Shown piece by piece: positions 32,424-51,271 of a stretch of 64,000 nucleotides of DNA. The DNA comes from Opitutia bacterium. Lineage in GTDB: Bacteria > Verrucomicrobiota > Verrucomicrobiia > Opitutales > Opitutaceae. The notes beneath the pieces were generated by a model. The model saw only the letters and a program-made list of their open reading frames with translations. It was not told where the DNA came from and did not search any database. Positions within the stretch are counted from its first letter, which is position 1; the number at the start of each line of letters is the position of its first letter. The translations under genes and the position numbers were made by a program. The stretch spans positions 20,372 to 84,371 of the forward strand of contig JACRHS010000006.1 of the NCBI GenBank assembly GCA_016217595.1, given 5' to 3'.

Positions 32424-34418
32424 TTATTCGTGATGTTCGCCGCGCAGCGTGCGGATTCGGCCCGGGCCTTCGATCCGCAGGTGGTAGCCACCCGGTCCCT
32501 CCAGCGCCCACAGATAAGCGCCAGCAAGCATGATCCCGAGCCCCATGATGACCAACGGCAGATGGGAGCTGAAGAGTGACACGCCGAACCAGACCACCGG
32601 CTCATGCAGCGGCGCGAACGCCAGCATCATCCAGGTCAGGCCAAAGGTGGTGAGCAACGGATACCACGAGGCGTCGGGCATGTGAATGTCGCCAGCGGGG
32701 CGGTCCGTGTCCGGCGTGATCTCGCCGGTGACACCGCGCGCCCGGGCCATGGCTTTGTCGTGCCACCAGGAGTCGCGCGCTTCGACGCTGGGCAGCGAGG
32801 CGAAATTGTACTCCGGCACCGGCGACGGGAGGCTCCATTCGAGCGTCCGGGCGTCCCATGGATCGCGCGACGCCGGAGCGCCCCGGAAATAGCTCCAAAT
32901 CGCAACGACAACATAGGTGGCAATGCCGAGTCCGAGCGTGTAGGCGCCCATCGTGGAGAGGAAATTCCCCTCGTTCCACCCCATGTTGCCGTCATAGGTC
33001 CAGGTCCGGCGCGGCATGCCGTTCAACCCGAGAAAATGCATGGGGAAGAACGTCAGGTTAAAACCGGTGAAGATAATCCAGAACGAGAGCTTGCCCCAGA
33101 ACTCCGGAATCATGCGGCCGAAAAATTTAGGAAACCAAAACTGGATCGCCGCGAGCAGGCCGAAGGTGGCGCCGCCGATCAGCACATAATGGAAATGCGC
33201 CACCACGAAATAGCTGTCCTGCTGCTGCGAGTCGGCGGGCGCGGCGGAGTGCATGATGCCGGAGAACCCGCCGAGCATGAACATCCAGATGAAACCAAGG
33301 GCAAACATCATCGGGGTGCGAAGCTGGAGCTGCCCGCCCCAGAGCGTGCCGATCCAGTTGAAAATCTTCACGCCGGTCGGCACAGCGATGGCCATCGTGG
33401 CGAGGGCGAAAGAGGCGGTGGCCATGGTGCCAAGACCGGTGGTGAACATGTGGTGACTCCACACGCCAAAGCCGATGAAACCGATGGTGGCGCCGGAAAA
33501 CACGACCAGCGGGTAGCCGAAAAGCGGCTTGCGCGCGAAGGTGGGCAATATCTCGGAAACATAGCCCATCGGAGGCAAAATCAGGATGTACACCTCGGGA
33601 TGACCGAACACCCAGAACAAGTGCTGCCAGACGATGGGCTGCCCGCCGTTGGACACCTCGTAAAAGCTGGTGCCGAAATGGCGGTCGAAGATCACCCCGA
33701 GCAGCGCGATGGCGATGGCCGGCAGCGCGAGGATGAGCAGAAAACTGGTGATCAGCGCCATCCAGGTAAAGACCGGCAGGCGCATCATCGTCAGCCCCGG
33801 CGCCCGGAGATTGACGATGGTGACGATGAAATTCAGCGAGGCTACGATGGAGGAAACGCCCAGCGTCTGTAGACCGATCGTCCACAAGTCAGTCGAGAGA
33901 TTCGGACTGAAAAGCTTCGAACTGAGCGGAGCATAACCGAACCAGCCGATGGCGGGCAGGCCGCTCTTCAAAAACCAGCCCGCGTTAAGCATGATGGCGC
34001 CGCCGACGAAGGTCCAAAGGCTGAAGGCATTGAGCCGCGGAAAGGCGACATCGCGCGCGCCAATTTGCAGCGGAATGAGCAGGTTGAAAAACGCCGCGTT
34101 CAACGGCATCACCGCGAGAAAGATCATCGTGGTGCCATGCATCGTGAACAGTTCGCTGTAGAAATGCGCGCTGATGAAATTGTTGTTCGGCACCATCAGC
34201 TGGGTGCGGATGAGCAGCGCCTCGACGCCACCGAGCAAAAAGAAGAACGCGGCAAATCCGGCATACAATAAGCCGATTCGCTTGTGATCGACGGTGGTGA
34301 GCCAGCTCGCCAGGCCGGTGCTGGCGGTCGGGCGCGGGAAAAGATTGATCGGCCGGACGTGGGAGCCCCCGTTGGGAGCATGGGCTGGAGCGGCGGCGGT
34401 TTCGACAGACTGAGCCAT
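32424..34418 (-). CDS. ctaD: Cytochrome c oxidase subunit I (heme-copper, A1 type)
   Basis: 664-residue catalytic subunit that reduces O2 to water and pumps protons. All ligands are visible: low-spin heme a H94 (FTMHGTTMIF) and H410, heme a3 H408 (VVAHFHYV), CuB H273, H322 and H323, and the cross-linked Tyr277 in GHPEVY. Proton-pathway residues of A1 enzymes are present: D123 (IGARDVAFPRLN), E275 and K351 (AVPTGVKIFNW). About 12 helices are followed by a C-terminal extension with extra helices (MPDASWYPLLTTFGLTWMML), as in Bacillus and Thermus caa3 oxidases. The substrate is cytochrome c, here supplied through the fused domain on subunit II. Confidence 0.98.
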   Translation of the reverse strand: MAQSVETAAAPAHAPNGGSHVRPINLFPRPTASTGLASWLTTVDHKRIGLLYAGFAAFFFLLGGVEALLIRTQLMVPNNNFISAHFYSELFTMHGTTMIFLAVMPLNAAFFNLLIPLQIGARDVAFPRLNAFSLWTFVGGAIMLNAGWFLKSGLPAIGWFGYAPLSSKLFSPNLSTDLWTIGLQTLGVSSIVASLNFIVTIVNLRAPGLTMMRLPVFTWMALITSFLLILALPAIAIALLGVIFDRHFGTSFYEVSNGGQPIVWQHLFWVFGHPEVYILILPPMGYVSEILPTFARKPLFGYPLVVFSGATIGFIGFGVWSHHMFTTGLGTMATASFALATMAIAVPTGVKIFNWIGTLWGGQLQLRTPMMFALGFIWMFMLGGFSGIMHSAAPADSQQQDSYFVVAHFHYVLIGGATFGLLAAIQFWFPKFFGRMIPEFWGKLSFWIIFTGFNLTFFPMHFLGLNGMPRRTWTYDGNMGWNEGNFLSTMGAYTLGLGIATYVVVAIWSYFRGAPASRDPWDARTLEWSLPSPVPEYNFASLPSVEARDSWWHDKAMARARGVTGEITPDTDRPAGDIHMPDASWYPLLTTFGLTWMMLAFAPLHEPVVWFGVSLFSSHLPLVIMGLGIMLAGAYLWALEGPGGYHLRIEGPGRIRTLRGEHHE

Positions 34419-34437: not shown

Positions 34438-35724
34438 TTACTTGAGATGCTGCAGATAGGCGACCAACGCCGTGATTTCCTGGGCGTCGAGCGTCACCAA
34501 ACGCCGGCCGGTCTTGGGCTCGATGTAACCGCCATGGACCATTTTATTGCCCGGCTTGAAGACCGCAGGATCGCGGACCCACTGGAACATGCGCTCGGGC
34601 GTGTTGGCGAGCACACCGGCGGCAATGGTGGTGCGGGAACCGACATGAGTAAGATCCGGACCGGCGATGCCAACGCCCTCGTGGCCGCGCACTACGTGGC
34701 AGCCGATGCAGGTCTTGGTTTGGAACAGGGCCCGGCCGCGCGCGATAAGATCGGCGTCCTCCTGCGCGGGCAACTCCTGCTGCCGTTTCCAACCCGCGAG
34801 CGGATCGGCCTCAAATGCCGGCGAAGCGGCGCGAATTCCACCGCGGTCCGCCGCCGGATCGGCGGGCTGCAGCGGCACGATCTGCGCGAGCTCGCGCGGC
34901 GTGCCGCTGGTGGCGCGCGCCGGCAATTTCTGCGTCGCGAGCCAGGCGGCGTAATCGGCGGGCGCAAGTGCGATCACGCGAAAACGCATGATGGCATGCG
35001 ACTCACCGCAGAACTCGGCGCACTGGCCGTAGAAATAGCCGGGGGCCGTGGCTTTGAACCAAAGGAAATTCGGGCGGTTGGGGATCATGTCCACCTTGCC
35101 CGCGAGTTTCGGCACCCAAAAACTGTGAATCACGTCGGTGGTGCGCAGCTGCACGCGCACGGCCCGGCCGGCCGGAACCACGAGTTCGTTGCCCGTCACC
35201 AGCGGCCCTTCGCCCCCGGCGGGCAAAGCGATTTTCTCCGTCGGGTATTCGAACTTAAACCACCACTGGTAACCGGTGGCCACCACTTCGAGCGCGTCTT
35301 TCCGCTCGGCCTCGGGCACGTCATAGGTGTACCAGATCGCGCGCATGGTGGGCACCGCGATGATGGCCAGCAGCCCCACCGACGCGAGGATCAGCCCGAC
35401 TTCGATCCAAGGATTGCCGTGGTCCTGCCCCGGCAGCGCATCGGCTGCGCGCAACCGGCCCCGCGCCCGGAATTTGATCATGGCGTACGCCAGCACCGCG
35501 CCCACCACGACAAAAATGAACAGCGTGACCCAGACCGTGACGAGGAAGACGGAACGCTGCGACTCGGCCACCGGCCCGGCGACATCGAGCGTGGATTGGT
35601 GGCCGCCCAAGTTGGCCCAACCGCAACCGGCGAGCGGCAGCAACAACAGAGCTGCAGGCAGCCAGGACAGAGGGGCGAGTGAGGAGAAAAGACGTCGGAA
35701 AAAAAAGCAGCTGCGCGAGACCAT
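34438..35724 (-). CDS. ctaC: Cytochrome c oxidase subunit II with fused cytochrome c (caa3)
   Basis: 428-residue lipoprotein-type subunit II. A signal peptide ends in lipobox LAGC (C34), followed by two membrane helices and a cupredoxin domain with the dinuclear CuA ligands H200, C235, C239, H243 and M246 (CAEFCGESHAIM; the Glu backbone ligand is also present) and the aromatic GYQWWFKFEYP. A C-terminal class I cytochrome c domain begins near residue 325 with CIGCH (339-343) and probable axial M395 (PGNKMVHGG). The fused heme makes this a caa3 oxidase, taking electrons from ACIII or membrane cytochromes without a free carrier. It lies directly before ctaD. Confidence 0.97.
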   Translation of the reverse strand: MVSRSCFFFRRLFSSLAPLSWLPAALLLLPLAGCGWANLGGHQSTLDVAGPVAESQRSVFLVTVWVTLFIFVVVGAVLAYAMIKFRARGRLRAADALPGQDHGNPWIEVGLILASVGLLAIIAVPTMRAIWYTYDVPEAERKDALEVVATGYQWWFKFEYPTEKIALPAGGEGPLVTGNELVVPAGRAVRVQLRTTDVIHSFWVPKLAGKVDMIPNRPNFLWFKATAPGYFYGQCAEFCGESHAIMRFRVIALAPADYAAWLATQKLPARATSGTPRELAQIVPLQPADPAADRGGIRAASPAFEADPLAGWKRQQELPAQEDADLIARGRALFQTKTCIGCHVVRGHEGVGIAGPDLTHVGSRTTIAAGVLANTPERMFQWVRDPAVFKPGNKMVHGGYIEPKTGRRLVTLDAQEITALVAYLQHLK

Positions 35725-38288: not shown

Positions 38289-38305
38289 TTCACCGAATGG
38301 GTGAA
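38289..38305. promoter_or_regulatory. Inverted repeat in the ctaA/SCO divergent region
   Basis: TTCACC-GAATG-GGTGAA, a perfect 6-bp dyad 10 bp before the SCO start, overlapping sequence downstream of a TTGACA hexamer at 38281. It could be a regulator site, but no -10 box fits well. Confidence 0.3.
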
Positions 38306-38315
38306 TCGGTGCATC

Positions 38316-39215
38316 ATGCAGAGGCTCTCTCTTCAGCTTGCGGCGCCGGGATTACTGTTGGCAGTCCTGCTGCTGGCAGGATGCGGCGGGCAGAAGCGGG
38401 AAAAATCAACCGCCGCGGTCAGCGAGGAAGCATCCGTCCTGTCGGGGGAAGTCGTCACGGCCGATCGGGTACAGAAAACCATCCAGTTGCAACAGCCCGG
38501 CCTGCCAGGCCGCCTGCCCGCCGGACTCCAAACATTCCGTCTCCTGCCGGCGGATGCGGAGATCGTCACGACTGGTCAGGCGTGGCGCGGCGAAACGCAT
38601 CAGCGCAATGGCGACTGGTGGCTGGAACATCTCTGGCCCGACGATGCGACCACGCTGCGCTTGTTGACAGCCACGGGACAGGCCTTGGCGCAGGATACCA
38701 TGATCCGCGGCCGGGCGGCATATCGCGAGATCGGCGAACTGATCCCCGACTTCACCCTGCTCGATCAAAATGCGCGCCTGGTGAGCGCCAACCAGTGGCG
38801 CGGCCGGCAAGTCGTGTTGAACTTCATCTTCACCCGCTGTCAGGTGGCGACAATGTGCCCGGCCGCCACGCGACGCATGCAACAGTTGCAACAGGCGGCG
38901 AAGGCCGCCGGACGCAATGACGTCACGTTTGTGACCATCACATTCGATCCGGCTTACGATTCGCCCGGCGTGTTGCGCGCCTATGCGACGGAACGCGGAA
39001 TCGACCTCGGCAATTTCAGCCTTCTCACCGGACCGGAGACGACCATCCAACATTTGCTGACCCAATTCGGGGTGCTGCGCACGATCGCGGACGGAACGAT
39101 CAAGCACACGGCCACCACGGTGTTGATCGACCGTCAGGGGCACATCGCATATCGCGCCGAAGGCAGCGCCTGGACGGTGGAGGAGTTTCTGGAAAGGCTC
39201 GTCCCGCCGCCATGA
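38316..39215 (+). CDS. SCO family copper chaperone, lipoprotein
   Basis: 299-residue thioredoxin-like protein that delivers copper to the CuA site of subunit II. Lipoprotein signal ends in LAGC. Residues about 45-95 (SGEVVTADRVQKTIQLQQPG, ending FRLLPAD) have the outline of a CusF-like copper-binding domain, but the metal residues (His, Trp, two Met) are absent. The SCO domain follows with FTRCQVATMCPAAT, a CX5C copper and thiol site, and the third ligand His in GTIKHTATTVLID. ATG at 38316 is preferred over GTG at 38301 because it opens the signal peptide. It overlaps the next gene by 4 bp and diverges from ctaA. Confidence 0.9.
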   Translation: MQRLSLQLAAPGLLLAVLLLAGCGGQKREKSTAAVSEEASVLSGEVVTADRVQKTIQLQQPGLPGRLPAGLQTFRLLPADAEIVTTGQAWRGETHQRNGDWWLEHLWPDDATTLRLLTATGQALAQDTMIRGRAAYREIGELIPDFTLLDQNARLVSANQWRGRQVVLNFIFTRCQVATMCPAATRRMQQLQQAAKAAGRNDVTFVTITFDPAYDSPGVLRAYATERGIDLGNFSLLTGPETTIQHLLTQFGVLRTIADGTIKHTATTVLIDRQGHIAYRAEGSAWTVEEFLERLVPPP

Positions 39216-40138
39216 CCCCGTGGCGTCAGACCTGGCTGCTTACAGGCCTCGCGGCAGCCATTTTCCTCGTCGTGCGCTCGCTTCCCACGGGCACCAATCT
39301 TTCGCACATGGATTTCCGGCCGGAAGGAAAGTCGCTGCTCGAGTGGTGCGATCCGGCCAACCCGCAATTCATCTCCGTGCTGCAAGTGCGGTCGCCCGTG
39401 ACGCTCGCCGTCCTGTTGTCTGATGCGCAGCCACTCCAAGCCGGCAACGTCTCAACCCTGCGTTTGGAGTTGAAGACCTCCAGCGGGAAACCGATCACGC
39501 CGGGCGATCTGGCCGTCGTGCACACGCGCAAGCTGCATCTGCTCGTGATCGACCCCAGCCTGTCGGACTACCAACACCTGCATCCTCATGCCGGGGCGCG
39601 GCCCGGCACGTGGGAAGTCAGCTTCACGCCCCGTGGCGGCGGACTGTACCGCGTATTTGCCGACTTCACACCGGTGGCGACCGGCCGGTCGCTCTACGCC
39701 GCGGCGGACCTGCCCGTAACCGGGACTCCCCTGCCCGCCGCGCCCGATGCGGCGCGGCAACGGCGCGAGGGCGAGGCGATTTTCACGCTGCACGCGCCGG
39801 AGTCGATGCGCGTCGGCCGCCCCGTGGATCTCCGTCTGGAGGTGCGTGACGCGCATGGCGCCCGCCCCGACTTGACGCCCGTCATGGGTGCGCCGGCGCA
39901 TCTCGTGGCCTTCGATGAACAGCGCACCGGATTCGCCCATTTGCACCCCCGCGATCCAACGCCAGCGCCAGAAACGCCGAACGCCGCTGGAACAAGCGTG
40001 GTGCTGAACTTCGCGCTCACGGTGCCGCGGGCGGGTCGCTATCTGATCTGGGCGCAATGCGCGCCGCACGGGATCGAAACCCTGGTGCCGTTTTGGATCG
40101 AGGTAGGCGGCCGCGGAGGCGACGGCGCGCCGCAATAA
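39212..40138 (+). CDS. Exported His-rich protein, possibly copper-related
   Basis: 308 residues. An N-terminal hydrophobic segment (TWLLTGLAAAIFLVVRSLP) acts as signal or anchor. The body appears to contain two Ig-like beta domains, each with a TLRLELKT- or DLRLEVRD-type strand and a His cluster: SDYQHLHPHAG in the first and FAHLHPRDP in the second. This duplication resembles YtkA/FixH-like and copper-resistance beta-sandwich proteins, which bind copper with His or Met. Coupling to the SCO gene by an ATGA overlap points to a role in copper handling for the oxidase. That role is inferred from context; the family is not certain. Confidence 0.66.
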   Translation: MTPWRQTWLLTGLAAAIFLVVRSLPTGTNLSHMDFRPEGKSLLEWCDPANPQFISVLQVRSPVTLAVLLSDAQPLQAGNVSTLRLELKTSSGKPITPGDLAVVHTRKLHLLVIDPSLSDYQHLHPHAGARPGTWEVSFTPRGGGLYRVFADFTPVATGRSLYAAADLPVTGTPLPAAPDAARQRREGEAIFTLHAPESMRVGRPVDLRLEVRDAHGARPDLTPVMGAPAHLVAFDEQRTGFAHLHPRDPTPAPETPNAAGTSVVLNFALTVPRAGRYLIWAQCAPHGIETLVPFWIEVGGRGGDGAPQ

Positions 40139-40153
40139 GCTATCGCCGCCAAA

Positions 40154-40822
40154 TTATGGCGCGCTCTCCACCGCGGATAATTCAGCCGCGGTCCAAGGCT
40201 TGTCGCGCGTCACCTTGGTGCGGACCTCGGCCACCTTTTCCGGCGTGATCGGGCCGGCTTTATTGCCCCACTCCTGTCGCACGTAGGTCAGCACGGCAGC
40301 GATCTGGTCATCGCGCCAGTTGTAGCCGCTGCCGGGCACTTTGCCGAAAGACGGCATGGCGCCGTTGAACACTTTGTCGCCAACTTTGATTTCACCGCTA
40401 AGGCCGTGCAGCACGACGCGGATCACCCGTTCCTCGTTGCCCGTGACCCACTCGGAACCGGCCAGCGGCGGGAACGCGCCGGGCACGCCCAACCCTGTCG
40501 GTTGGTGACAGGTCACGCAAGCCGCCGCGTACTGCTTCTTGCCGAGCACAACCGGATCGATCGGCGGGGGAACGGCCGCCGCGCCCGCGGCAATCGGTGG
40601 CGCCTCTTCGTTGTAGGCCAGGGGAGAAAACCGGCCCGAGTAGCGATCAAGATAAATGCCCGCCACGTAGGCGACCGCGGCAAAAACGATCGCGAGGCCA
40701 ACCGACAACCCCACGTTGCTGCCGGTGGGTTCGGCCGGCGGGGACGCATGGGCCTGGCGCAACGCTTCGTCCGATTGAGCGGAGCGTTCCTGGCGGGGGT
40801 CGGGAGACGGATCGGCGCGCAT
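40154..40822 (-). CDS. Membrane-anchored monoheme cytochrome c (CcoP-like)
   Basis: 222 residues. About 35 polar N-terminal residues, one helix (VGLSVGLAIVFAAVAYVAGI) and a periplasmic class I cytochrome c domain with CVTCH and probable axial Met in NGAMPSFG. A Pro/Ala linker separates helix and heme domain. It is last in the ACIII operon and follows CcoN- and CcoO-like genes, so it takes the place of CcoP but carries one heme, not two. It ends 15 bp from the stop of the convergent His-rich protein gene. Likely role: electron transfer between ACIII and the oxidase. Confidence 0.85.
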   Translation of the reverse strand: MRADPSPDPRQERSAQSDEALRQAHASPPAEPTGSNVGLSVGLAIVFAAVAYVAGIYLDRYSGRFSPLAYNEEAPPIAAGAAAVPPPIDPVVLGKKQYAAACVTCHQPTGLGVPGAFPPLAGSEWVTGNEERVIRVVLHGLSGEIKVGDKVFNGAMPSFGKVPGSGYNWRDDQIAAVLTYVRQEWGNKAGPITPEKVAEVRTKVTRDKPWTAAELSAVESAP

Positions 40823-40852: not shown

Positions 40853-41536
40853 CTATGGGGTTTTCGCCGGCGCAGTGGCGGCGGGAGCAGTCGAAGCTGC
40901 GGGTGCGGGTGTCGCCGGCACGGCCGCGGGAATCACCGCCGCGGGCGCCTCGGGCAAAGCGTAGTCTTGCTTGAGCGCCAGCAGGTAGCTCACCAGCGCC
41001 TCCGCCCGCGAGGTCGGCACCACCTGCCAGCCCGGAGCGACGGGCAAGGCGAGGGCCGCGGAAGATTTTTGCCCCACAATCGCACGACGCTCGAAGAGGA
41101 AAGAAAACGCCGGCATACCGCCCTGGCCGTCGTGGAGCATCCGATAAAGTTTGGCGCGATCCACACCGGCCTTCACGGCGCGCTCGCCGAAATTGGCGAG
41201 GTCGGGGCCGATGCGCGCTTGCCCCAGTTGCGGGTGCGTCTGCAACGCGTAATCGCGGGCGACGCTCTGACGCTCGCCCCAGCCGCGGTTTTGATCCCAA
41301 CCGTAGCCGTAGCGCCGCACCTGTTGCGTGTGGCACGCGCCACACCCCAACTCCTGATAAACGCGTTGCCCTTGGGCCGCCTGCCCCGACATCGCTGCCG
41401 GGACGCTCATGTTGTCGAGCGGATCGAAGTGCGTTCCGAGTGCGCGCAGCTGGCGGTGAGAGCCCACAACGATGGCGGCCCAGGAGAGCGCAATCGCACC
41501 AAAAACGCCGAGGAAGAAATAGAGGCTGGGCTTCAT
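40853..41536 (-). CDS. CcoO-like monoheme cytochrome c (cbb3 subunit II type)
   Basis: 227 residues. One N-terminal helix (YFFLGVFGAIALSWAAIVVG) and a periplasmic cytochrome c domain matching CcoO: YQELGCGACHTQQVRRYGYG with the heme-attachment CGACH, GQARIGPDLANFGERA, and MPAFSFLFERR with the probable axial Met. The C-terminal 45 residues are Ala/Pro repeats. In a cbb3 oxidase CcoO passes electrons to CcoN; here the adjacent CcoN-like protein seems to lack its metal sites, so this subunit's partner is unclear. It overlaps the CcoN-like stop by 4 bp. Confidence 0.88.
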   Translation of the reverse strand: MKPSLYFFLGVFGAIALSWAAIVVGSHRQLRALGTHFDPLDNMSVPAAMSGQAAQGQRVYQELGCGACHTQQVRRYGYGWDQNRGWGERQSVARDYALQTHPQLGQARIGPDLANFGERAVKAGVDRAKLYRMLHDGQGGMPAFSFLFERRAIVGQKSSAALALPVAPGWQVVPTSRAEALVSYLLALKQDYALPEAPAAVIPAAVPATPAPAASTAPAATAPAKTP

Positions 41537-42978
41537 GACGCGGGCGCAGAGGCGAGGGTATCGGAGTGCGCCGCATCAGAGGCGGGCACCAGCTGAAGGA
41601 TTCCGTTAACGAGCAGCAGCACGCCGCCGAGCAGTTCCAGACCGAGCCCGAGGGTCGCGGTGAGCAACCAGGGACGCGTGGCGGCAAAAATCTCCGCAAA
41701 CGTCTGCGCTGCGATCTGGCCGTCCGCCGCGCGGATCGCCACGAGCGCAGTGCCCTGCGTAAGACCTGCGCCGACCAGACCCGCGATCAGAATCAGCAGA
41801 CCGATCCAAGTCGCGCGAAAGTGGGTGCGGATCAGACCATCCGAGGCCCACGCCCGACCGGTGAGTCGCGGCAACAGAAAATAGAGCGCGCCGAAGGCAA
41901 TCGGCGTGAACACGCCCAACACCAACAGCGTCAGCCGCGCTTCGCCGAGATAGGTGAATTGCGTGTATTGCGCCACCGAGCGGAAGGCCAGCGCCGTGTC
42001 CGTCAGCCCGCTCGCGAGGTAGGCGGCGATGCCAACCAGCACAAACCGCAAAGCCTGGCTGGGACTGCCACGGCGAAAGACCGCCTTAAAGTTGGAAGCC
42101 ACGATGAGGTAGTGCAGCGTGAGCAAAAGCGTGCAGCTCACTCCCACCGTCGGCACCCACACTGGCACCGGCCCGCCGACCAGCGCCCGCGTGCCGACCC
42201 ACGGAGCCAACACGATCAGCGCCCAGAATCCGACATCCGCATAGTTGTAAGCCGCCAGCTTCTGCCCGTTGAGCTTGGGCACGAGATAATAGGCGGCCGC
42301 GAGCGCCAACGGCGCGATCCAGACCAGCCGCAATCCTTCGCCCGCCCACGCGCCCACGATGGCCTGGGAAACTCCGGTCACAGGATAGAGCGAAAGCATC
42401 GCATAAGCGGCGGAATAAAACCAAGGCAGCGCGAAAATCGCCGCGCTCGCATACCACTGCGCCGCGTAGGTGTCTGCCCGGCGGCGGTCCAGCCATGCGG
42501 CCAGACCCGCGACACCGAAAGCGGCATAGGCGGCGCCCAACAGCGGAAAAACATAAGCCGGCATTTGCAGCAGCGCGTACGGTCCGAGATCGCCGGCGAG
42601 AATGCCGATGACGCCGACCGTCACGCCCGCATTCCAAAAGGCGACGCCGATCAACGCTCCGACCGCGCCGCGCGGACGTTCTCCGCCCAGCCGGCCCAAC
42701 AGCCACCACGCAATGGCAAACCCGACATTGGCCACCCAGCCAAACACCAACGCCGACTCGGCGGCGGCCTGCACGCGGCCAAAGGTAAACCACTCGTACC
42801 GGGCCAAAAATTCCGGAGTGTGCAACTGGATCGAATGGATCAACGCGAGGAACCCGCCCGCGACGAACCATTTTATACCCAACGCCAGCAGCAACAACAA
42901 CGCCCAGCGCGCCTGCGTTTCGACCGCGACCGGTTCGTCGTTCGACGAGGCGCTAGAAGGTGTGGCAGGGGCATTCAT
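41533..42978 (-). CDS. CcoN-like membrane protein lacking heme and CuB ligands
   Basis: 481-residue protein with about 12 helices that aligns by eye with cbb3 oxidase subunit I (CcoN): FTFGRVQAAAESALVFG (64-80), QAIVGAWAGEGLRLVWIA (205-222), FWALIVLAPWVGTRALVGG (251-269) and QYTQFTYLGEARLTL (337-351). The corresponding CcoN positions are metal ligands, but here I read Ala73 for the low-spin heme His, Glu214 for the first CuB His, Arg264-Ala265 for the CuB His pair, and Glu346 and Arg348 for the b3 and b His. Only five His occur in the whole protein. It should therefore be a structural, non-catalytic paralogue. It sits in the ACIII operon with ATGA overlaps on both sides, so it probably associates with ACIII and the CcoO-like cytochrome. 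Confidence 0.82.
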   Translation of the reverse strand: MNAPATPSSASSNDEPVAVETQARWALLLLLALGIKWFVAGGFLALIHSIQLHTPEFLARYEWFTFGRVQAAAESALVFGWVANVGFAIAWWLLGRLGGERPRGAVGALIGVAFWNAGVTVGVIGILAGDLGPYALLQMPAYVFPLLGAAYAAFGVAGLAAWLDRRRADTYAAQWYASAAIFALPWFYSAAYAMLSLYPVTGVSQAIVGAWAGEGLRLVWIAPLALAAAYYLVPKLNGQKLAAYNYADVGFWALIVLAPWVGTRALVGGPVPVWVPTVGVSCTLLLTLHYLIVASNFKAVFRRGSPSQALRFVLVGIAAYLASGLTDTALAFRSVAQYTQFTYLGEARLTLLVLGVFTPIAFGALYFLLPRLTGRAWASDGLIRTHFRATWIGLLILIAGLVGAGLTQGTALVAIRAADGQIAAQTFAEIFAATRPWLLTATLGLGLELLGGVLLLVNGILQLVPASDAAHSDTLASAPAS

Positions 42979-43301
42979 CGGCGGGAGGCGGCAATTTCCT
43001 TCACGGTGATTTCCATCGCAAGATCGATGGGCAGGCGGACGACACCCTTCGACCGGTCAATCCACGCGCATTCCTGCGCCGCACTGATCTCGCGGGCGCG
43101 CAGGTCGGCGAGCCGCTGGGCGCGACCTTCGGCGGTGAATTTCCAGCGATCGCCTTCCGCGACTTGAGAGAGATCGACCGGCACCGGCCCGTCGGGACGA
43201 CGCGCCAGATAGCCGAGCAGGATGAACAACGCGAAGCCGGCGAGGATCGCCGCGACACTCACCCACGAGAGGGGTTTCGAGCTGGCAGAATCAGTCGGCA
43301 T
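42975..43301 (-). CDS. Small single-helix membrane protein of the ACIII operon
   Basis: 108 residues. One N-terminal helix (WVSVAAILAGFALFILLGYL) and a charged periplasmic tail with LADLRAREISAAQECAWIDR, then GVVRLPIDLAMEITVKE. The W-x-D...G-V-x-x-P-I-x-x-A-M pattern looks like a conserved partner found in other ACIII operons, but I cannot name a family. It overlaps the actF stop by 11 bp and the CcoN-like start by 4 bp, so it is certainly co-translated. No cofactor motif. Confidence 0.72.
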   Translation of the reverse strand: MPTDSASSKPLSWVSVAAILAGFALFILLGYLARRPDGPVPVDLSQVAEGDRWKFTAEGRAQRLADLRAREISAAQECAWIDRSKGVVRLPIDLAMEITVKEIAASRR

Positions 43302-44568
43302 GGGGCTGGTGGTAAGTGAGGCATTCGCCGATGCGCGGATCGCGGATCGGGATGAGTTTGGTCGTGGCGAAGCTCTTCAGGTACGCCCACACACAGATGC
43401 CGCCGATGCCGACGACGGAGGTGAGCGTCCAGATGAGGCCGCCTTGGAGGAAGGGATACGGGTCGCCGTTCGGGAGTTTTTTTGCCGGCATCACGTTGTA
43501 GCAGATGTCGAGCAGCACTATCAGCGCGATGAAAGCCGCCACCACCGGCAGCAGCTTTTTGTTAATCTTCACCGGATAGTGGATGAGCGTGAGGAACGGC
43601 GCGAGGAAATGGCCGAAGAGCAGCACCATCCCGACCCAGAGCCAGTCGCCATGTTCGCGGAGGTTGTACCAGAAGGTTTCTTCGGGGACGTTGGCGTTCC
43701 AGATCAGGAAATACTGCGAGAACGTCACGTACGCCCAGAACACCGTGAACGCGAACATGAGCTGGCCGATCGAGTGCAGGTGATTGTCGTTGAGGATGCC
43801 CTTGAAGTCGCCGCGCACCCAGAGCCAGATCAGCATGATCGCGCCCACCGAGAGCGCCGCGCGCACGCAGCCGGCAAAATACCACACGCCGTACATCGTC
43901 GAGAACCAGTGGTAATCGAGCGACTTCACCCAGAGGATCACACACAGCGTGAGCGTGACCGCCATGAGCGGAATGCCGCCGGCCGACCACTTGTGGCTGG
44001 AGATGGTCCAACGCACATCGCCGTCGGAGTCCTGGGCGAAGGAATTGCGCCGGAAAATCCGCGCCAGCGCGATCCAGACGGCGAAGGAAACCGCGGTGAC
44101 CAGCGTGAAGACTTTGATGCTGAGGAAACCGGATTTCTTGGCCCACAGCACATCGTCGCCGACCGTGCCGTGACCGCCGACCTGCGCGAGGTCGAAGTGC
44201 GGATCCATCCATTTCCAGATGAGCGTGGGATTTGTCCACGCCACGAAAATGAGCGGCACGAAGAGCAACGCGAGCCAGGGCAGCGACGACAGCCAGTGCT
44301 CATATTGGCGGCGCAACAGCACCGACCAGTTGGCATCGAAGAGATGGTGGATCATCACGAGCAGCAGCATGCCGAGCGCGACGCCGATCCAGAACACGAG
44401 GCCGATCAGCCACGAAAGCGCGACCGAGGCGGTGTTGCCTGGAAGGAAAAGTCCGAGCGCGGTGAGCCCGATGCCGGCAAGGCCGAGCATGAGCGCTTTC
44501 GTTGCGCCCGGGGCGACGGGGAATGCGCCAACCGGCGCGGTGGAGACGGAAGCGGTGGGCGTGCTCAT
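43291..44568 (-). CDS. actF: Alternative complex III subunit ActF
   Basis: 425-residue membrane subunit of the quinol:cytochrome c oxidoreductase ACIII, in the ActF (NrfD-related) group. Seen: about ten helices; GMLLLVMIHHLFDANWSVLL, NDNHLHSIGQLMFAFTVFWA, YVTFSQYFLIWNANVPEETF and LLFGHFLAPFLTLIHYPVK. The sequence has no cofactor motif, as expected; ActF lies beside ActC in the membrane and may form a proton path. An ATGA overlap links it to actE. Confidence 0.93.
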   Translation of the reverse strand: MSTPTASVSTAPVGAFPVAPGATKALMLGLAGIGLTALGLFLPGNTASVALSWLIGLVFWIGVALGMLLLVMIHHLFDANWSVLLRRQYEHWLSSLPWLALLFVPLIFVAWTNPTLIWKWMDPHFDLAQVGGHGTVGDDVLWAKKSGFLSIKVFTLVTAVSFAVWIALARIFRRNSFAQDSDGDVRWTISSHKWSAGGIPLMAVTLTLCVILWVKSLDYHWFSTMYGVWYFAGCVRAALSVGAIMLIWLWVRGDFKGILNDNHLHSIGQLMFAFTVFWAYVTFSQYFLIWNANVPEETFWYNLREHGDWLWVGMVLLFGHFLAPFLTLIHYPVKINKKLLPVVAAFIALIVLLDICYNVMPAKKLPNGDPYPFLQGGLIWTLTSVVGIGGICVWAYLKSFATTKLIPIRDPRIGECLTYHQPHAD

Positions 44569-45218
44569 TTGATCCCGAGCTCCTTCTGTTGGGCGGCCGG
44601 CACATCGGCGGGCGTGCCTTGCTGGGCGCGCTGGAGCGCCCGCACGTAAGCGACCACGGCCCAGCGCTCATCCGGCGCGAGTTTGTCGGCGTAGGAGAGC
44701 ATGGTGTTTTTGCCGTGCGTGATCGTGTTGTAAATTTCGCCGGCCGGCATCTGACGCAGGCGGTCGTCGTGATAGGTGGGCGTGGCGCCCATGCCGTAGG
44801 CTTTGGTGATGCCCTGACCGTCGCCGAGCGCGCCGTGGCAGGGCTGGCAATAAATCACGTAGCGTTCCTGACCGCGCTTGATGAAAGTCCGGTCGATGGC
44901 CAGCGCGGCGGGGAAACCCGGCGCCCACGCTCCGGTCGCGGTCTTGCCGGCGTAGAGATGATCGTCGTCGCGCAGCGGCTGCCCGGCGGGGCCGTAGCTG
45001 CTCGCCACCACGCCGGGAGGCAAGGGGCGGTCGGTGCGCCCGTCGGCGAAGAACTTCGACTCCGCCTGCGGTTTGTACTTCGGCTGCCGTTTCATGCCGG
45101 GGAAAGCCCATTCCGGAAAGACATCGATCGGCGGCTTGACGAAGGTCGCGCCGCGGAAGCCAAGCAGCGACACCGCGAGCACAGCCAGAAATGCGAGGAC
45201 AAGTAAGGCGTACCGCAT
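44565..45218 (-). CDS. actE: Alternative complex III monoheme cytochrome ActE
   Basis: 217 residues. An N-terminal hydrophobic stretch (YALLVLAFLAVLAVSLLGF) serves as signal or anchor; a family-typical MKRQPKYKPQAESKFFADGR segment follows. The single heme motif is CQPCH in RYVIYCQPCHGALGDGQGI, with a probable axial Met in KNTMLSYADKL (ITHGKNTMLSY). ActE accepts electrons from the ActA pentaheme domain and hands them to the oxidase or to membrane cytochromes. It lies 3 bp after the actD stop. Confidence 0.93.
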   Translation of the reverse strand: MRYALLVLAFLAVLAVSLLGFRGATFVKPPIDVFPEWAFPGMKRQPKYKPQAESKFFADGRTDRPLPPGVVASSYGPAGQPLRDDDHLYAGKTATGAWAPGFPAALAIDRTFIKRGQERYVIYCQPCHGALGDGQGITKAYGMGATPTYHDDRLRQMPAGEIYNTITHGKNTMLSYADKLAPDERWAVVAYVRALQRAQQGTPADVPAAQQKELGIK

Positions 45219-45221
45219 GGG

Positions 45222-45755
45222 TCAGTCCTCCAGCTCCGTGATTTCCCGGCCGCCGATTTGCTCGAGCAGCGCGCGGGTGGCGGCGGGATCGAAGCGCGGA
45301 TCGCGCGTTTCGATCACGATGAAAAAGCGGTCGTTGGTGCCGCGGTGGAACTTCTCATAGTTCAACACCGGGTGGTAGTGCATCGGAAGGCGGTTGAACA
45401 AAAACATGCCGATGATGGTGGCAAAGGCGGTGAACAGGATGGTGAGCTCGTACGACACCGGGAACGCGAACATCGGACTGAAGTACGGCTTGCCGCCGAC
45501 GATGAGTTTGTAGTTCGACGCGCCGGTCCACCAGATGAGCGACATGCCGGTGGTGAATCCCGCGAGGCCGCCGAGGAACGAGACCTGCGGTACTTTCGAG
45601 CGGCGCATGCCCATCGCGCGATCCATGCCGTGGATCGGGAAGGGCGAGATGACGTCCCAGAATTTGTAGCCCTGGTCGCGCACGGTTTCGGCGGCGTGCA
45701 TGACCTCGGCGGTGGTTTCGAAGGTGGCGATCAAGCCGTAGGATGGCGCGGGCAT
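45222..45755 (-). CDS. actD: Alternative complex III subunit ActD
   Basis: 177-residue two-helix membrane protein of the DUF3341 family. Seen: YGLIATFETTAEVMHAAETV, KFWDVISPFPIHGMDRAMGM, RRSKVPQVSFLGGLAG, and a final alpha/beta part with RFFIVIETRDPRF. ActD is a structural ACIII subunit between ActC and ActF. ATG at 45755 begins right before the conserved PAPSYGL; the longer frame upstream is antisense-like. It follows actC by 10 bp. Confidence 0.92.
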   Translation of the reverse strand: MPAPSYGLIATFETTAEVMHAAETVRDQGYKFWDVISPFPIHGMDRAMGMRRSKVPQVSFLGGLAGFTTGMSLIWWTGASNYKLIVGGKPYFSPMFAFPVSYELTILFTAFATIIGMFLFNRLPMHYHPVLNYEKFHRGTNDRFFIVIETRDPRFDPAATRALLEQIGGREITELED

Positions 45756-45765
45756 GGTCGGTGGC

Positions 45766-47193
45766 TCAGGCGTGTTTGTCGCCAGCGTGCGGGTCGGCCT
45801 GCTGGGTGACGGCCTTGATTTCCGCCATCGGCATGATCGGCAGAAACCGGATGAAGAGGAGGAACAGCACCGAGAAGACGCCAAAGGTGCCGAAGAACGT
45901 GAAGATTTCCACGATGGACGGGCTGTAATAGCCCCAGCTCGACGGCAGGAAGTCGCGCGCCAGCGAGGTGACGATGATCACGAAACGCTCGAACCACATG
46001 CCGACGTTGACGAAGATCGAGAGGATCCAGACGAGCGCGGTGTTCTGGCGGACTTTCTTAAACCAGAAGAACTGCGGCGTGATGACGTTGCACGTGATCA
46101 TGATCCAGTAAGCCCAGGCGTAGTTGCCAAACGCGCGGTTGATGAACGCAAAGCCCTCGTAGGGGTTCGCGCCGTACCACGCGATGAAGAACTCCATGCC
46201 GTAGGCGTAGCCCACCATGGTGCCCGTCGCCAACGTGATCTTGCAGATGCAGTCGATGTGATACTGCGTGATCAAGTCCTCCATCTTGTAGATGGCCCGC
46301 AGCGGCAGCATGAGCGTAAGCACCATGCCGAAGCCCGAGAAGATCGCGCCCGCCACGAAGTATGGCGGGAAAATCGTGGTGTGCCAGCCGGGCAACAGCG
46401 ACACCGCAAAGTCGAACGACACGATGGTGTGCACCGAGAGCACGAGCGGCGTGGAGATGCCGGCGAGGATCAGGTACGCCATCTCGTAGTTGCTCCAATG
46501 GCGGTTGGAGCCGCGCCAGCCCATCGCGAAGAGCCCGTAGATCCAGGCGCGAAGCCGGTTGCCTGTCGCGGCGAAGCGGTCGCGCAGCGTCGCGAGATCG
46601 GGGATGAGGCCCACGTACCAGAAGCAGATCGACACCGTCGCATAGGTGGAGACGGCGAACACGTCCCATTCGAGCGGTGAGCGGAAGTTCTGCCAGATGG
46701 CGTTGCTGTTCGGAATCGGGAACAGATACCACGCGTACCAGACGCGGCCGACGTGGAAGACCGGGAAAATGCCGGCGCAGACCACCGCAAAAATTGTCAT
46801 GGCCTCGGCGGCACGATTGATCGACGTGCGCCACTTTTGCCGCAACAGACACAAGATCGCCGAGATCAGCGTGCCCGCGTGGCCGATACCGATCCAGAAC
46901 ACGAAGTTCACGATGTCCCAGGCCCAGTTGACCGGATTGCTGTGACCCCAGACGCCGACACCGGTCGACACCAGATAGGTGATGCCGGCGACGGTGAACG
47001 ACGCGACAAAGCACGCGACCACGAAGCAAATCCACCACCACAGCGGCGTCTTGCCTTCGATCAGGCTGCAAATCTTGTCGGTGATCCAACCGAAGTCGCG
47101 GTTGTTCTCGACGAGCACCGGACGCGGCAACACCGCGGGTTTGACCTCCTGCAGAATGGCCGGTGCGGAAGCGTTATGTTCTGCGTGTGCCAT
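45766..47193 (-). CDS. actC: Alternative complex III subunit ActC (NrfD-like, quinol site)
   Basis: 475-residue ten-helix membrane protein of the NrfD/PsrC family, where menaquinol is thought to be oxidised. Seen: [53 protein letters not shown] segment ([15 protein letters not shown]), and [20 protein letters not shown] with [13 protein letters not shown], which hold the His and Asp residues conserved around the quinol pocket in ActC. Its start overlaps the actB stop by one base (TGATG). Confidence 0.95.
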
Positions 47194-50100
47194 CAGGCCA
47201 GCCCTCCGTTGCGTTTGGCGTTTTCAATGCCGGTGTGTCCATGCGGCGCGTGCGGCTTGTCCGCCCCGCCCTTCCCTGCCCCGCCCGCTTCGTGTCCGTG
47301 CGTGTCGCCGTGCGGAGCGCTGTGACCGGATTTGTTGTTGTACTCCACGCGGCTCAGCGGGAGATCGCGATAATCGGGCATGCGCGGGTTCGGGTTGCGG
47401 AGTTTGCCGAGATACGTGGTGCGCGGACGGATGTTGAGATAGCCGAGCAGCGAGTAATCCTGCGCGCGGGCCTTGGCCTGCACGACGGCGCTCTGCGGAT
47501 CGAGCAGATTGCCGAACACGATGGCGTCGGCCGGGCAGACTTGCTGGCAGGCGGTCTTGATCGTGCCGTCGGGCACCACGACATCGCCGGGGCGGCCTTC
47601 CTTGGACGACTTCGCCTTCCACTGGATTTTCGCGTTCTGAATGCGCTGCGTGCAATAGGTGCATTTCTCCATCACGCCGCGCATGCGCACCGTGACTTCG
47701 GGATTCTTGCCCATCTGCACGAGCTCGGGCATGCCCTGCGGACCGAGCGGTCCGAGGTAGAGGCTGTCGAGCTGGCGCTGATTCCAATCGAAGAAATTAA
47801 AGCGGCGGACCTTGTACGGGCAATTGTTGGCGCAGTACCGCGTGCCGATGCAGCGATTGTAGGCCATGACGTTGAGGCCCTCGCCGTCGTGCACGGTGGC
47901 GTTGACCGGGCAAACCGTCTCGCACGGCGCGAGCTCGCACTGGGCGCACGCGACCGGCTGGAGGGAAACCTGCGGATCTTCCGGAATCTCCTTGTTGCCC
48001 TCGCCGCCAAACGCGCCGGCGTCGGCCTTGCCGTCCGAGTAGTAACGGTCGAGGCGAATCCAGTGCATTTCGCGACCGCGCAGCACCTGATCCTTGCCGA
48101 CAATCGGAATGTTGTTTTCCGCCTGACAGGCGATGACGCACGCGTGGCAGCCGGTGCAAACGTTGAGATCGATCGACATGCCCCACTGGTGGTGGCCGTC
48201 GAACTCGGGCGTCTTGTAGAGGGAATTGCCGCGCGGGATCTGCGTCGCCTTCTCGGCGGGTGTCAGCTTCGCGCCGTCTTTACCGTAGATCGGCGGACTG
48301 TGCGCTTCGAGCCCCATCGCGTTGACAAACGCGGGATTCTTCTCGAATTCCTCGTAGTTCGCCTCGCGCACCAGATCGCGGCCTTCCATCGACCAGTGCT
48401 CCTGCGTGTTGGCGAGCAACGTACGTTCGCCGGTGAGCTTCACCGTCGCGCCCGTGGCAAAATGCAGCGCGGCGCTCGTGCGCAGCGGATAAACGTCGAA
48501 GCCCGCGCCGGTGCCGACGCGCCCGCTCTTCGTCCGACCATAGCCGAGCGGCAGCACCAACGTGTAATTCGATAGACCGGGCTGGATGTGCAGCGGCCCA
48601 CGGATTTTCCGTCCGCCGACCGTCACCTCGCCCACGTAAGCGTTCTCCTTGCCCTGCTCGAATTCGGCCAGCTCCTTGCGCGCCACTTGCAGCCGCGCGC
48701 CCGCCGGATCGATGCCGAGCTCCTTCGCCAGCCGAGGGCTGACGAGAATGACATTGTCCCACGCGATTTTCGTGATCGGGTCGGGGCACTCTTGCAGCCA
48801 GCCGTTGTTGGCGAAACGTCCGTCGTCGAGCCGGTAGTCGGCGATAAAACGCACTTCGAGATTGGCCGGGGTCAACGCCTCGAACTTGGGCGCCTGGCGG
48901 AACAGCACTTCCGCGGTGCGCGGGTTGTAGGCTGCATCGATCTTCGGCCAAGCCGAGCCGGCGAGCAGGCCGTCGTGCAGGAAACGCTCGAAGGCTTTGC
49001 GCGCATCGCCGCCCGCCAGTCCGGTGATCGTGTTGAAAACAATCGTGTACGGATCGGTGACCGATTCGCCCGCGAGCCGCGCGAGCATTTCGAGTTCCGT
49101 GAGTCCGCCAAACAGCGGCAGAATCATCGGCTGCACCGGCACGATGGTCCCGTCGAACGCGCGGGCATCGCCCCACGATTCGAGGAAATGCGTGGCAGCG
49201 AGATGCACCGTCGTCGTCGAAGCGACCGCCGAGGTTTCGTCGACGTAATAACCGTAGCGAATCACCTCCGGCACCGATTGCTGCAACGCGGGCCAGTTCA
49301 GCTCGGCGGGCGCGTTGTAAGCGGGATTGCCGCCGACGATCACGAGCGTCTTGACCGCGCCCGTCTTGATCGTCGCCGCGAGATCCTGGATCGAAGCCGC
49401 CGTGTCGGGCTCGGCGGCGACCAGCTCGACGGTCTTGCCGAGATTGCCCAGCGCATCGTTGATCGCGTAGGCGAGCGCGTGCACCGCGGCGGGTTGGTGC
49501 GCACCGGCCAGCACGAGCGACTCGCCCCGATGCGCGAGGAGATCCGCCGCGCATTCGGCGACCCACTCGGGTTTGACATCGAGCCCGCGTGCCAGCGGCG
49601 CGAACATTTCCGTGCCGAGCACTTTTCCGGCGAGCGCCGCCGCCAGCGCGAGCATGTGACTGCTCGCGAGCCGCAGCCGGTGATCCGCCATCGTGCCGGT
49701 CAGCGTGAAGCCGCTTTCCGCCACGTAGAGCCGGTTCATCGGATCGGTGGGCTTGGTCACGCGACGGCCCTTGGCGAATTCCCGCGCGAAATAGAGATGG
49801 TCCGCCTCCCCGCCGAGAAAATCGGCGTCGAGCGCAACAATGCGCTTCGCCCGGGCAAACTGATAGAGCGGCTTAACCGCCTTGCCGAAACAAGCGCGCG
49901 CCGCTTCCGCCGGCGGCTCATCCTGCACCGGCTCGTACTCGGCCCAGGTGGCTTGCGGGAATTTGCTCCGCAACTTGCGCACAAGCGCGGCGCGCGATGG
50001 CGAACTCGAAACCTGCGCGAGAAACGCCAGCCCGCGCCCGCCGTTGGCGGTGTGCGTCTGACTCACTTTGGCCAACAGATCGGCGACGGCGGCGCTGTCG

Positions 50101-50585
50101 AGTGCATCGCCATTGCGCGTATGGGCGGTGGCGCGATCCGGATCGTACAGCTCGAGCACGGATGCCTGCGCAAGCAACGAACTGGTGCCGCCGAGTGGAG
50201 CGAAGGTCGGGTTGCCCTCCAGCTTCGTGGGCCGGCCCTGGTGCGTCTCGGCCAGAAGCGGGAGCGCGCTGCGGCGCAGCGGCATCGCGGTGGCGAAATA
50301 AAGCGGCAGCCCGGGAATCACGCCCTCGACGGATTTCCCGTAGGGCAGAATGTTTTTTTCCGGCCGGCGGCAACCGGCGAGGCCGAGCCCGCCGAGCGCG
50401 AACGACGCCGCCATGAGTTTTAGGAAATTGCGGCGGTCGGAGCCTTCCAGTGCGGCGGCGCCTTCGGGAAACTCGCGTTCGAGCTGCGCCTGGAAGCCCG
50501 GCGTTTGCGCAAGCTCGTCGAGACTGCGCCAGTAGCGCGGTCCACGGAGTTCGGACGAGGCAGGAGTGACGGGCTGGCGTTTCAT
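47193..50585 (-). CDS. actB: Alternative complex III subunit ActB (molybdopterin-like + Fe-S)
   Basis: 1130 residues. N-terminal [20 protein letters not shown] then an internal Tat/lipoprotein signal, [20 protein letters not shown] with AGC as lipobox, which exports the protein folded. The middle 650 residues are a molybdopterin-oxidoreductase fold that in ACIII binds no Mo cofactor. The C-terminal domain carries four Fe-S clusters: [53 protein letters not shown], then CTYCTQRIQ and [10 protein letters not shown]. It relays electrons from ActC to ActA. The very end is His/Gly-rich (GHEAGG). ATG at 50585 overlaps the actA stop. Confidence 0.95.
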
Positions 50586-51238
50586 CGGTGGCAACCGGAG
50601 CAACTTTGCGGAGGTTTGATCTTCCAATCGTCGACGAGCTTCTGGCCGTCGCGGAGCTGGCCGCTCGCGCCGGCGGGATGCTGCCAGCCGAGATTGGTCA
50701 CGAGTTCACGGGGTCGCACGGCCTCTTGGGGCGCGCGATGGCAGTCGAGACAGAATTCCATCGAGAACGGTTTGGCGTGCTGCACGGTTTCCATCTGATC
50801 GATGCGATCGTGGCAGGACACGCAACTGACGCCGCGGGTGACATGCGCGGCGTGGTTGAAATAGGCGTAGTCGGGCACGCTGTGAATTTTCACCCACGGC
50901 ACGGCTTCGCCCGACTCGTAGCTCTGGCGCACCACGGCGAGCAGCGGGCTCTGCGGCTTGATCTGGTTGTGGCAGTTCATGCACGTCTGCGACGTGGGCA
51001 CGTTGGCATGACCGGATTTTTCCACATTGCTGTGGCAATAGCGGCAATCGAGCCCGAGCTGGCCGGCGTGCAGCTGGTGGCTGAACGGCACGGGCTGCAC
51101 CGGCGCGTAGCCGACGCGCGTGTATTTCGGCGTCATGTAGTAGGTGACGCCCAGCGCCGCCAGGCCGCCCAACACGCCGACAAACGTCAGGATTTGCAGT
51201 GGGAGCCGGTTGGCGGATTTCGGGAAAAGTTTCGGCAT
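50582..51238 (-). CDS. actA: Alternative complex III pentaheme cytochrome ActA
   Basis: 218 residues. One N-terminal helix (LPLQILTFVGVLGGLAALGV) anchors a periplasmic multiheme domain with five CXXCH motifs: CRYCH, CMNCH, CVSCH, CLDCH and CSGCH. Bis-His partners are supplied by PVPFSHQLHAGQLGLD, NHAAHVTRG and similar segments. ActA takes electrons from the ActB clusters and passes them to ActE. The ATG at 51238 gives the usual N-terminus; an upstream TTG at 51262 would add eight residues. It is the first unquestioned gene of the ACIII operon. Confidence 0.95.
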   Translation of the reverse strand: MPKLFPKSANRLPLQILTFVGVLGGLAALGVTYYMTPKYTRVGYAPVQPVPFSHQLHAGQLGLDCRYCHSNVEKSGHANVPTSQTCMNCHNQIKPQSPLLAVVRQSYESGEAVPWVKIHSVPDYAYFNHAAHVTRGVSCVSCHDRIDQMETVQHAKPFSMEFCLDCHRAPQEAVRPRELVTNLGWQHPAGASGQLRDGQKLVDDWKIKPPQSCSGCHR

Positions 51239-51271
51239 GTCCGAAGAGTGTTGGGGCGGCAACGGTTCGGG

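Follow-up and report, generated by a model that had tools for sequence, protein, structure and literature searches.

Gene content of the locus

The 64,000-nucleotide stretch of DNA analysed here (the window) derives from an Opitutia bacterium (assembly GCA_016217595.1, contig JACRHS010000006.1, positions 20,372 to 84,371) and harbors on its minus strand the ActABCDEF gene set of an alternative complex III (ACIII), followed by four further genes in the order ActA-ActB-ActC-ActD-ActE-ActF-orf108-N-O-P (Table 1). The subject of this study is N, which encodes a homolog of CcoN, the subunit I of cbb3-type (C-family) heme-copper oxidases, that has other residues in place of all six metal-ligand histidines. 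The open reading frame (ORF) of N is intact and overlaps each neighbor by 4 bp, with orf108 ending at 42975 and the CcoO-like ORF starting at 41536. A preliminary description of this locus, made from the sequence alone, had already noted the intact gene and its overlaps. As in cbb3 operons, the adjacent genes O and P encode heme c subunits; both are homologous to their cbb3 counterparts and heme-bearing, P having one CxxCH motif.

Table 1. Genes of the ACIII operon and its surroundings, in window coordinates
Feature	Position	Strand	Description and support
N (P0001)	41533..42978	-	CcoN-like subunit without metal ligands, 481 aa
O	40853..41536	-	CcoO-like mono-heme cytochrome c, CxxCH present; FixO (Pfam) 8.6e-8; PDB CcoO matches
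P	40154..40822	-	CcoP-like mono-heme cytochrome c; Cytochrom_C 1.3e-11; weak ccoP match
orf108	42975..43301	-	Small conserved protein, 108 aa, one likely transmembrane helix (by eye); between ActF and N
ActF	43291..44568	-	ACIII subunit; PDB 6f0k_F, 3.3e-48
ActE	44565..45218	-	Mono-heme cytochrome c of ACIII; PDB 6f0k_E, 2.5e-41
ActD	45222..45884	-	Pfam ActD 9.7e-64
ActC	45766..47193	-	NrfD family; Pfam NrfD 4e-25
ActB	47193..50627	-	FeS protein; Fer4 domains and operon position
ActA	50582..51262	-	Pentaheme cytochrome c; Cytochrome_C7
Unnamed ORF	39212-40138	+	308 aa, no Pfam match; directly after P
SCO1-like gene	38301-39215	+	Copper chaperone; between ACIII block and cox block
CoxA	32424..34418	-	Oxidase subunit I; NCBIfam CtaD_CoxA 682 bits (equivalog cut-off 671 bits)
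CoxB	34438..35724	-	With C-terminal cytochrome c domain (caa3-type); COX2 and Cytochrom_C

ActA and ActB are assigned by domains and position only; ActB contains what we take to be a molybdopterin-oxidoreductase-like part, and ActA has five CxxCH motifs in all 44 relatives. The true start of ActD probably lies later than the listed ORF start, with the Pfam match running from residue 49. The small protein encoded by orf108 carries a W-x-D...LP motif, matched nothing in Pfam or NCBIfam and nothing credible in the PDB, and was not detected by profile in several families of the window's class. Beyond the two plus-strand ORFs lies a second minus-strand set comprising ctaA, ctaB, coxB, coxA and coxC. 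Two COX1-type genes, coxA and N, were found in the genome assembly, which is 68% complete.

N is a CcoN homolog without metal ligands

Pfam COX1 covers residues 28-444 of N (E 1.1e-32, 114 bits). In the PDB, N matches five chains, each of them a cbb3 subunit I; among these are 3mk7_A (E 2e-18) and the best match, 9g6b_A (E 6e-22), whose alignment covers residues 33-476. Its score against NCBIfam ccoN is 97 bits, far below the 583-bit cut-off. An AlphaFold model of N alone, built from a 24-row alignment, reached a pLDDT of 88 and a pTM of 0.89, and the seven top PDB matches returned by Foldseek for this model were all CcoN (TM 0.86-0.90, rmsd 2.1-2.8 Å), the TM score against CcoN 3mk7 being 0.87-0.90. 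N thus has both the COX1 fold and the sequence homology of a C-family subunit I.

The register of the metal-binding positions was taken from the best PDB alignment (HMMER) and from a MAFFT alignment with a true CcoN (P0097), and the two agree. In CcoN numbering, which we take to be that of Pseudomonas stutzeri, the six histidines that bind heme b, heme b3 and CuB are replaced in N as follows: H60 by A73, H207 by E214, H257 by R264, H258 by A265, H347 by R348 and H349 by T350. The active-site tyrosine, Y251, is replaced by A258. The histidines of N are residues 48, 53, 289, 386 and 471, none of which stands at a metal position. As all six ligand histidines are replaced, N is probably devoid of heme b, heme b3 and copper, and the sequence suggests that it is probably unable to reduce oxygen. 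The COX1 and PDB matches together with the HMMER/MAFFT register uphold the preliminary description of N as a CcoN-type subunit stripped of metal ligands, including the replacements A73, E214, R264-A265 and R348. One position was misplaced: E346, which had been named as a ligand position, corresponds to an Ile/Val outside the ligand set, two residues ahead of the position that binds heme b3, and the final ligand falls on T350.

The loss is shared by the close relatives of N

Scoring 7998 candidates from a set of 5.8 billion proteins yielded a family of at least 92 members including the query (identity at least 33%), to which a later search added one more (P0188). The full-length set comprised 89 proteins of 440 aa or more, query included, and gene order was read in the best 80 of 506 matching stretches that were named genome loci, all but one from Opitutae-type or Verrucomicrobia genomes. 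These 89 homologs and 80 loci are the nearest relatives of N among the matches listed, and more distant members of the same operon have the full ligand set. Within the 89 homologs, 22 kept none of the six histidines, 64 kept one and three kept two, but never more, and the full set occurred in none of the 80 loci; tyrosine at the active-site position was absent from all 89. A loss shared so widely goes beyond chance. The single histidine kept is mostly H265 (63/89), beside R264 (82/89), and other residues recur as well: Q214 in 72, Q348 in 56 and E74 in 82 of the 89. Many sequence sources label members of this family 'cbb3-type subunit 1'.

The surrounding genes recur across the 80 named loci, with N and O found in 80, orf108 in 79, ActF in 78 and P in 74. 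In the order of detected genes, orf108 directly precedes N in 79 of the 80, and in the six loci without P no more than about one gene length of contig remains after N. The CxxCH motif is present in O at 79 of the 80 loci and in P at 73 of the 74 where P was found, the exception in each case being cut by a contig end. The likely axial position of O is occupied by Met in 49 and by His in 25 of 81 rows.

A second CcoN-like family (P0096 and P0098-P0186; named sources Vicinamibacterales and Actinomycetota) has also lost most ligands. Its 81 full-length members all carry R at position 264, and 74 carry N at 214; three of the four members displayed have His at the H349 position.

Intact and stripped forms coexist in one operon across Verrucomicrobiota

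Among 387 genomes of the phylum searched, 128 gave a match, and the region was read in the 93 that matched more strongly (E 7e-65 or better). Of these, 92 were classified; the remaining one, G313, has an intact N on a 5.2-kb contig without an Act gene. The gene order ActABCDEF-orf108-N-O-P is found repeatedly within the class of Verrucomicrobiota to which the window belongs. In 27 of the 92 genomes, the N of this same ACIII block has all six His and the Tyr (intact N), whereas 65 genomes carry a stripped N that keeps three histidines (two genomes), two (five), one (40) or none (18). No genome keeps four or five, a gap that is expected if the function was lost as a whole. The heme motif of the neighbors persists regardless of this state: CxxCH is present in O and in P of all 65 stripped genomes, and in O of 27/27 and P of 25/27 intact genomes, the P gene being unseen in two. 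The earlier placement of N beside a CcoO-like gene that keeps its heme motif, inside an ACIII operon, therefore extends well beyond the window. As a control, second COX1-type genes from the same phylum (L133-L148) were intact in 16 of 16 cases.

In two loci, L128 (9673) and L153 (1270), N keeps only the H60/H349 pair, the other four ligands and the Tyr being lost. These two proteins may still bind the low-spin heme b with the oxygen-reducing site gone, and may represent a heme-b-only stage between oxidase and scaffold.

Fully liganded N occurs in the ACIII operon of L173-L181, L184-L187 and L193-L197, forming one clade with other N sequences. The Glu of canonical CcoN at alignment column 326, which we take to be E323, is missing from the six intact N rows displayed. 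The fully liganded N of the ACIII operon is apparently an unnamed type of oxidase. A further variation is an extra P-like mono-heme cytochrome between ActF and N in L124, L127, L159-L167 and L172.

The weaker matches came from 35 genomes, of which 11 were looked at (L113-L117, L119, L120, L138-L140 and L143); the other 24, including G078 and G369, lie outside the count. Ten of the 11 have the full ligand set, and L120, truncated at its start, shows five ligands. Only L119 among them adjoins Act genes. In L113, L115, L116, L117 and L120, from elsewhere in the phylum, the gene next to the liganded C-family oxidase gene encodes a cytochrome that carries seven CxxCH motifs.

Stripped N is under purifying selection

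When each distinct N was represented by a single locus, the median dN/dS of stripped N was 0.134 (36 pairs, maximum 0.338), compared with 0.067 for intact N (seven pairs); including repeated genome pairs gave 0.143 (48 pairs) and 0.075 (10 pairs), respectively. The values for ActC were 0.076 in the stripped group (25 pairs) and 0.043 in the intact group (10 pairs). Stripped N is under purifying selection, and it shows neither the broken frame nor the neutral evolution of a pseudogene: the frame is open over at least 467 aa in 65 of 65 stripped genomes, and dN/dS is about 0.13.

Site conservation was compared between 33 rows of intact and 165 of stripped N, a set that still contains near-copies. 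At 45 sites, stripped N carries at 90% or more the same residue as intact N, while 69 sites conserved at 95% or more among the intact sequences have been released in the stripped ones. The released sites include all seven metal and Tyr positions, and others such as R70, W210, R441 and E135. The fold and some surfaces have therefore been retained, and the metal pockets let go.

Ligands appear to have been lost repeatedly

The history of the loss was traced on trees that were all built quickly and carry SH-aLRT support only. On the ActB+ActC tree (84 operons plus outgroup), the distribution of intact and stripped N requires at least eight state changes, six of them forced by well-supported branches; after removal of eight long-branch or outgroup rows, seven changes remain, all forced. 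A single stripped clade is rejected on this tree, at a cost of 2325 log-likelihood units (p 4e-55). About ten all-stripped clades were counted by eye, some of them on weak forks, and one clade, which has full support and groups 34 rows with the window among them, combines 28 stripped with six intact operons. The changes are read as losses because a regain of seven exact residues is implausible, and the loss as recurrent because related genomes carry a fully liganded N in the same operon, a point that the preliminary description had missed. From these sequence comparisons, metal sites appear to have been lost on several occasions among related bacteria.

The state of N was also compared with the presence of a CoxA-type oxidase, defined as a match of E<=1e-60 to the window CoxA, that is, by similarity to it rather than by individual typing. 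Such a match was found in 89 of 93 genomes, and the four without it all have an intact N. Expressed by state, 65/65 stripped and 23/27 intact genomes have a match (Fisher p 0.006 for CoxA-less genomes against N state). A coxA gene lay within the fetched stretch in 26/65 stripped and 2/27 intact genomes, with a median gap of 182 bases between P and coxA over those 26. In several families (L121-L123, L125-L127, L152 and L154-L165), the detected order is Act genes-N-O-P-coxA-coxC-coxB.

Residues that occupy the former metal sites

The preliminary description had proposed that salt bridges, formed by Glu214/Arg264 and Glu346/Arg348, stand in for the metal center. As a general rule, this does not hold: E346 is not a ligand site, and an acidic residue at 214 combined with R/K at 348 occurs in only nine of the 89 homologs, six of them among the 13 nearest to the window. 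R/K348 is found in 9/12 rows with an acidic 214, and an acidic 346 in 14/16 rows with R/K348. In the covariation check that had been suggested, about one of four independent tree contrasts showed both 214 and 348 changing. The residues co-occur by count with few independent joint changes, the sign test is powerless, and the salt-bridge rule was rejected.

A weaker form of substitution is suggestive from the alignments, namely a cation at the spot of the CuB di-His pair in stripped N. Of the 65 stripped genomes, 44 have Arg or Lys at 264/265, and this state changes at least five times on the operon tree. The mean R/K content over 224 helix-core sites is 1.4%, with single sites much higher, such as 384 (65%; 59% in intact N) and 435 (45%). 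Since 264/265 lies at a helix end, outside these 224 sites, the cation remains suggestive only.

Proposed role of N and alternative explanations

On balance, we favor the view that N is a CcoN-type protein whose six ligand histidines are replaced, that it is probably free of metal, and that it likely serves as a membrane scaffold for two c-heme subunits on ACIII. The ancestor would have been an ACIII-linked, cbb3-like oxidase of the C family. In genomes that also possess a CoxA-type oxidase, its catalytic core would have become dispensable, and the metals would have been lost several times. The reason for keeping N would be that ACIII and the two c-heme subunits, O and P, continue to use it as the membrane body on which they pack. 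Electrons would pass from the ActA and ActE hemes to the hemes of O and P, and would leave these for either a soluble cytochrome c or the cytochrome c domain of CoxB; N would neither carry electrons nor reduce oxygen. The preliminary description had likewise proposed a metal-free scaffold; the absence of ligands, the conservation and the purifying selection agree with it, and the scaffold function is the best interpretation that the sequences suggest. We are evenly divided on a more far-reaching version, in which an oxidase core turned, perhaps around ten times within one class, into a metal-free ACIII adaptor whose side chains fill the pockets, often with Arg or Lys at the copper spot, and whose c-heme subunits wire ACIII to a CoxA-type oxidase.

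Several observations weigh against this interpretation. The tree of N itself shows only four changes, one of them an artefact of the truncated row L120, and groups most stripped forms together on long branches; it also mildly rejects the window family, that is, the 34-row clade of the ActB+ActC tree, as one clade (p 0.012). This conflict may stem from long-branch attraction or from exchange of N between operons, and the claim of repeated loss is drawn from the ActB+ActC tree, not from the N tree. The link to CoxA is weak, as it rests on two genera (G001/G146 and G128/G228), and 23 of the 27 intact genomes have coxA too. A tie between a nearby coxA and the loss in N found no support once relatedness was counted. 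In the window, the cox genes form a close but separate unit from the ACIII block, because the two plus-strand ORFs intervene. In L119, N-O-P is missing next to the Act genes, whose neighbor is instead a divergently placed intact CcoN/O, so that N-O-P is not obligatory for ACIII. Furthermore, the position of N within the ACIII complex would follow from gene order, and the wiring role of O and P from their heme motifs alone, and a heme may be held in N by unusual ligands.

This last point leads to an explanation that we consider unlikely, in which N has a new redox role and binds a different cofactor, such as a heme held by other ligands, a quinone or another metal. Polar residues do recur in the old sites (E74, Q214, R264 and H265), and L128 and L153 keep the H60/H349 pair. 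In addition, H289 and H386, outside the metal sites, are both present in 81 of the 89 close homologs and in the window. However, H386 is also found in canonical CcoN and in 27/27 intact genomes and is thus no new ligand, while H289 occurs in only 14/65 stripped genomes. The window N has no His at any metal site, the heme-pocket residues R70, W210 and R441 are released as well, and the old sites are filled by differing residues in different lineages. Alternatively, N-O-P could be an assembly or regulatory module outside the electron path, serving ACIII or the CoxA-type oxidase as a chaperone or an oxygen/redox sensor. Pseudoenzymes are often allosteric partners, and the window has cox genes and the gene of an SCO1-like copper chaperone close by; against this, both c-heme motifs persist in 65/65 stripped genomes, where a chaperone would not need them, and position and order fit an operon of structural subunits, which makes such a module quite improbable.

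That N is merely decaying, carried along by its operon neighbors without a new role, is very improbable. Its dN/dS is indeed roughly doubled in the stripped form, where 69 sites have been released, but the relaxation is small relative to ActC (1.8 versus 1.6), as ActC is also higher in the stripped group; moreover, frames are open in 65/65 genomes, the N-O pair is kept in 80/80 named loci, and 45 sites are conserved. Finally, ligands might be present and have been missed through misalignment or assembly error, as the register of the preliminary description was itself off by two in one helix. The chance of this is negligible: the HMMER and MAFFT registers are consistent with each other and with the conserved residues on either side, relatives with the same operon place His on exactly these columns, and the loss recurs in 89 homologs and 65 genomes, which rules the error out. 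The metal-free scaffold thus remains the explanation that we prefer.

If it is correct, Verrucomicrobiota would possess a respiratory supercomplex with a dead oxidase at its center, and fully liganded and half-stripped stages would still exist in living relatives. It would be a new kind of ACIII supercomplex, predicted for bacteria known mostly from environmental genomes. As intact, partly stripped and fully stripped forms of N occur in one operon, why the core is kept after catalysis is lost becomes directly testable. Metabolic annotation errs at this gene, because oxygen reduction is read from gene names, yet 65 of 92 genomes lack the metal-holding residues.

Comparison with known systems

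No ligand-free CcoN in an ACIII operon was found in the accessible portions of the open-access literature (PMC), including PMC13274419, PMC5615132, PMC8361435 and PMC5492636, subscription papers lying outside this scope, and the same portions gave no description of the fully liganded N of the ACIII operon either. The intact forms may overlap with an 'unknown group' of oxidases (Muntyan 2015), as far as that group is presented in the consulted part of PMC5492636. In a Verrucomicrobiota isolate, a table in PMC13274419 lists ActABCDEF followed by cox genes by locus number; as far as this table goes, the numbering leaves no room for N-O-P, which points to members of the phylum that lack the module.

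Supercomplexes of ACIII with a cytochrome oxidase are known, according to the part consulted of a review (PMC8361435). The ACIII-oxidase supercomplex of Flavobacterium johnsoniae and the ACIII of Rhodothermus marinus have the ActABCDEF core in common with the window. We know of no N-O-P module in either of these complexes. Compared with CcoN, subunit I of the cbb3 oxidases (3mk7), N is similar in length, with 12 long helices in its model and 22% identity over 458 alignment columns, and shares the structural residues W175, Y230-Y231, P234-K235, F251-W252 and H386; it differs in that the six ligand histidines, the active-site Tyr and the surrounding heme-pocket residues are replaced. Likewise, O resembles CcoO in its FixO match and heme motif, and P resembles CcoP in its cytochrome c domain, whereas both score far below the equivalog cut-offs, and canonical CcoP has two hemes where the window P has one. 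A further counterpart is the fully liganded N of related genomes (e.g. L173-L181 and L193-L197), which shares with stripped N the operon, the neighbors, clear homology and the 45 conserved sites, and differs from it in having the six His and the Tyr.

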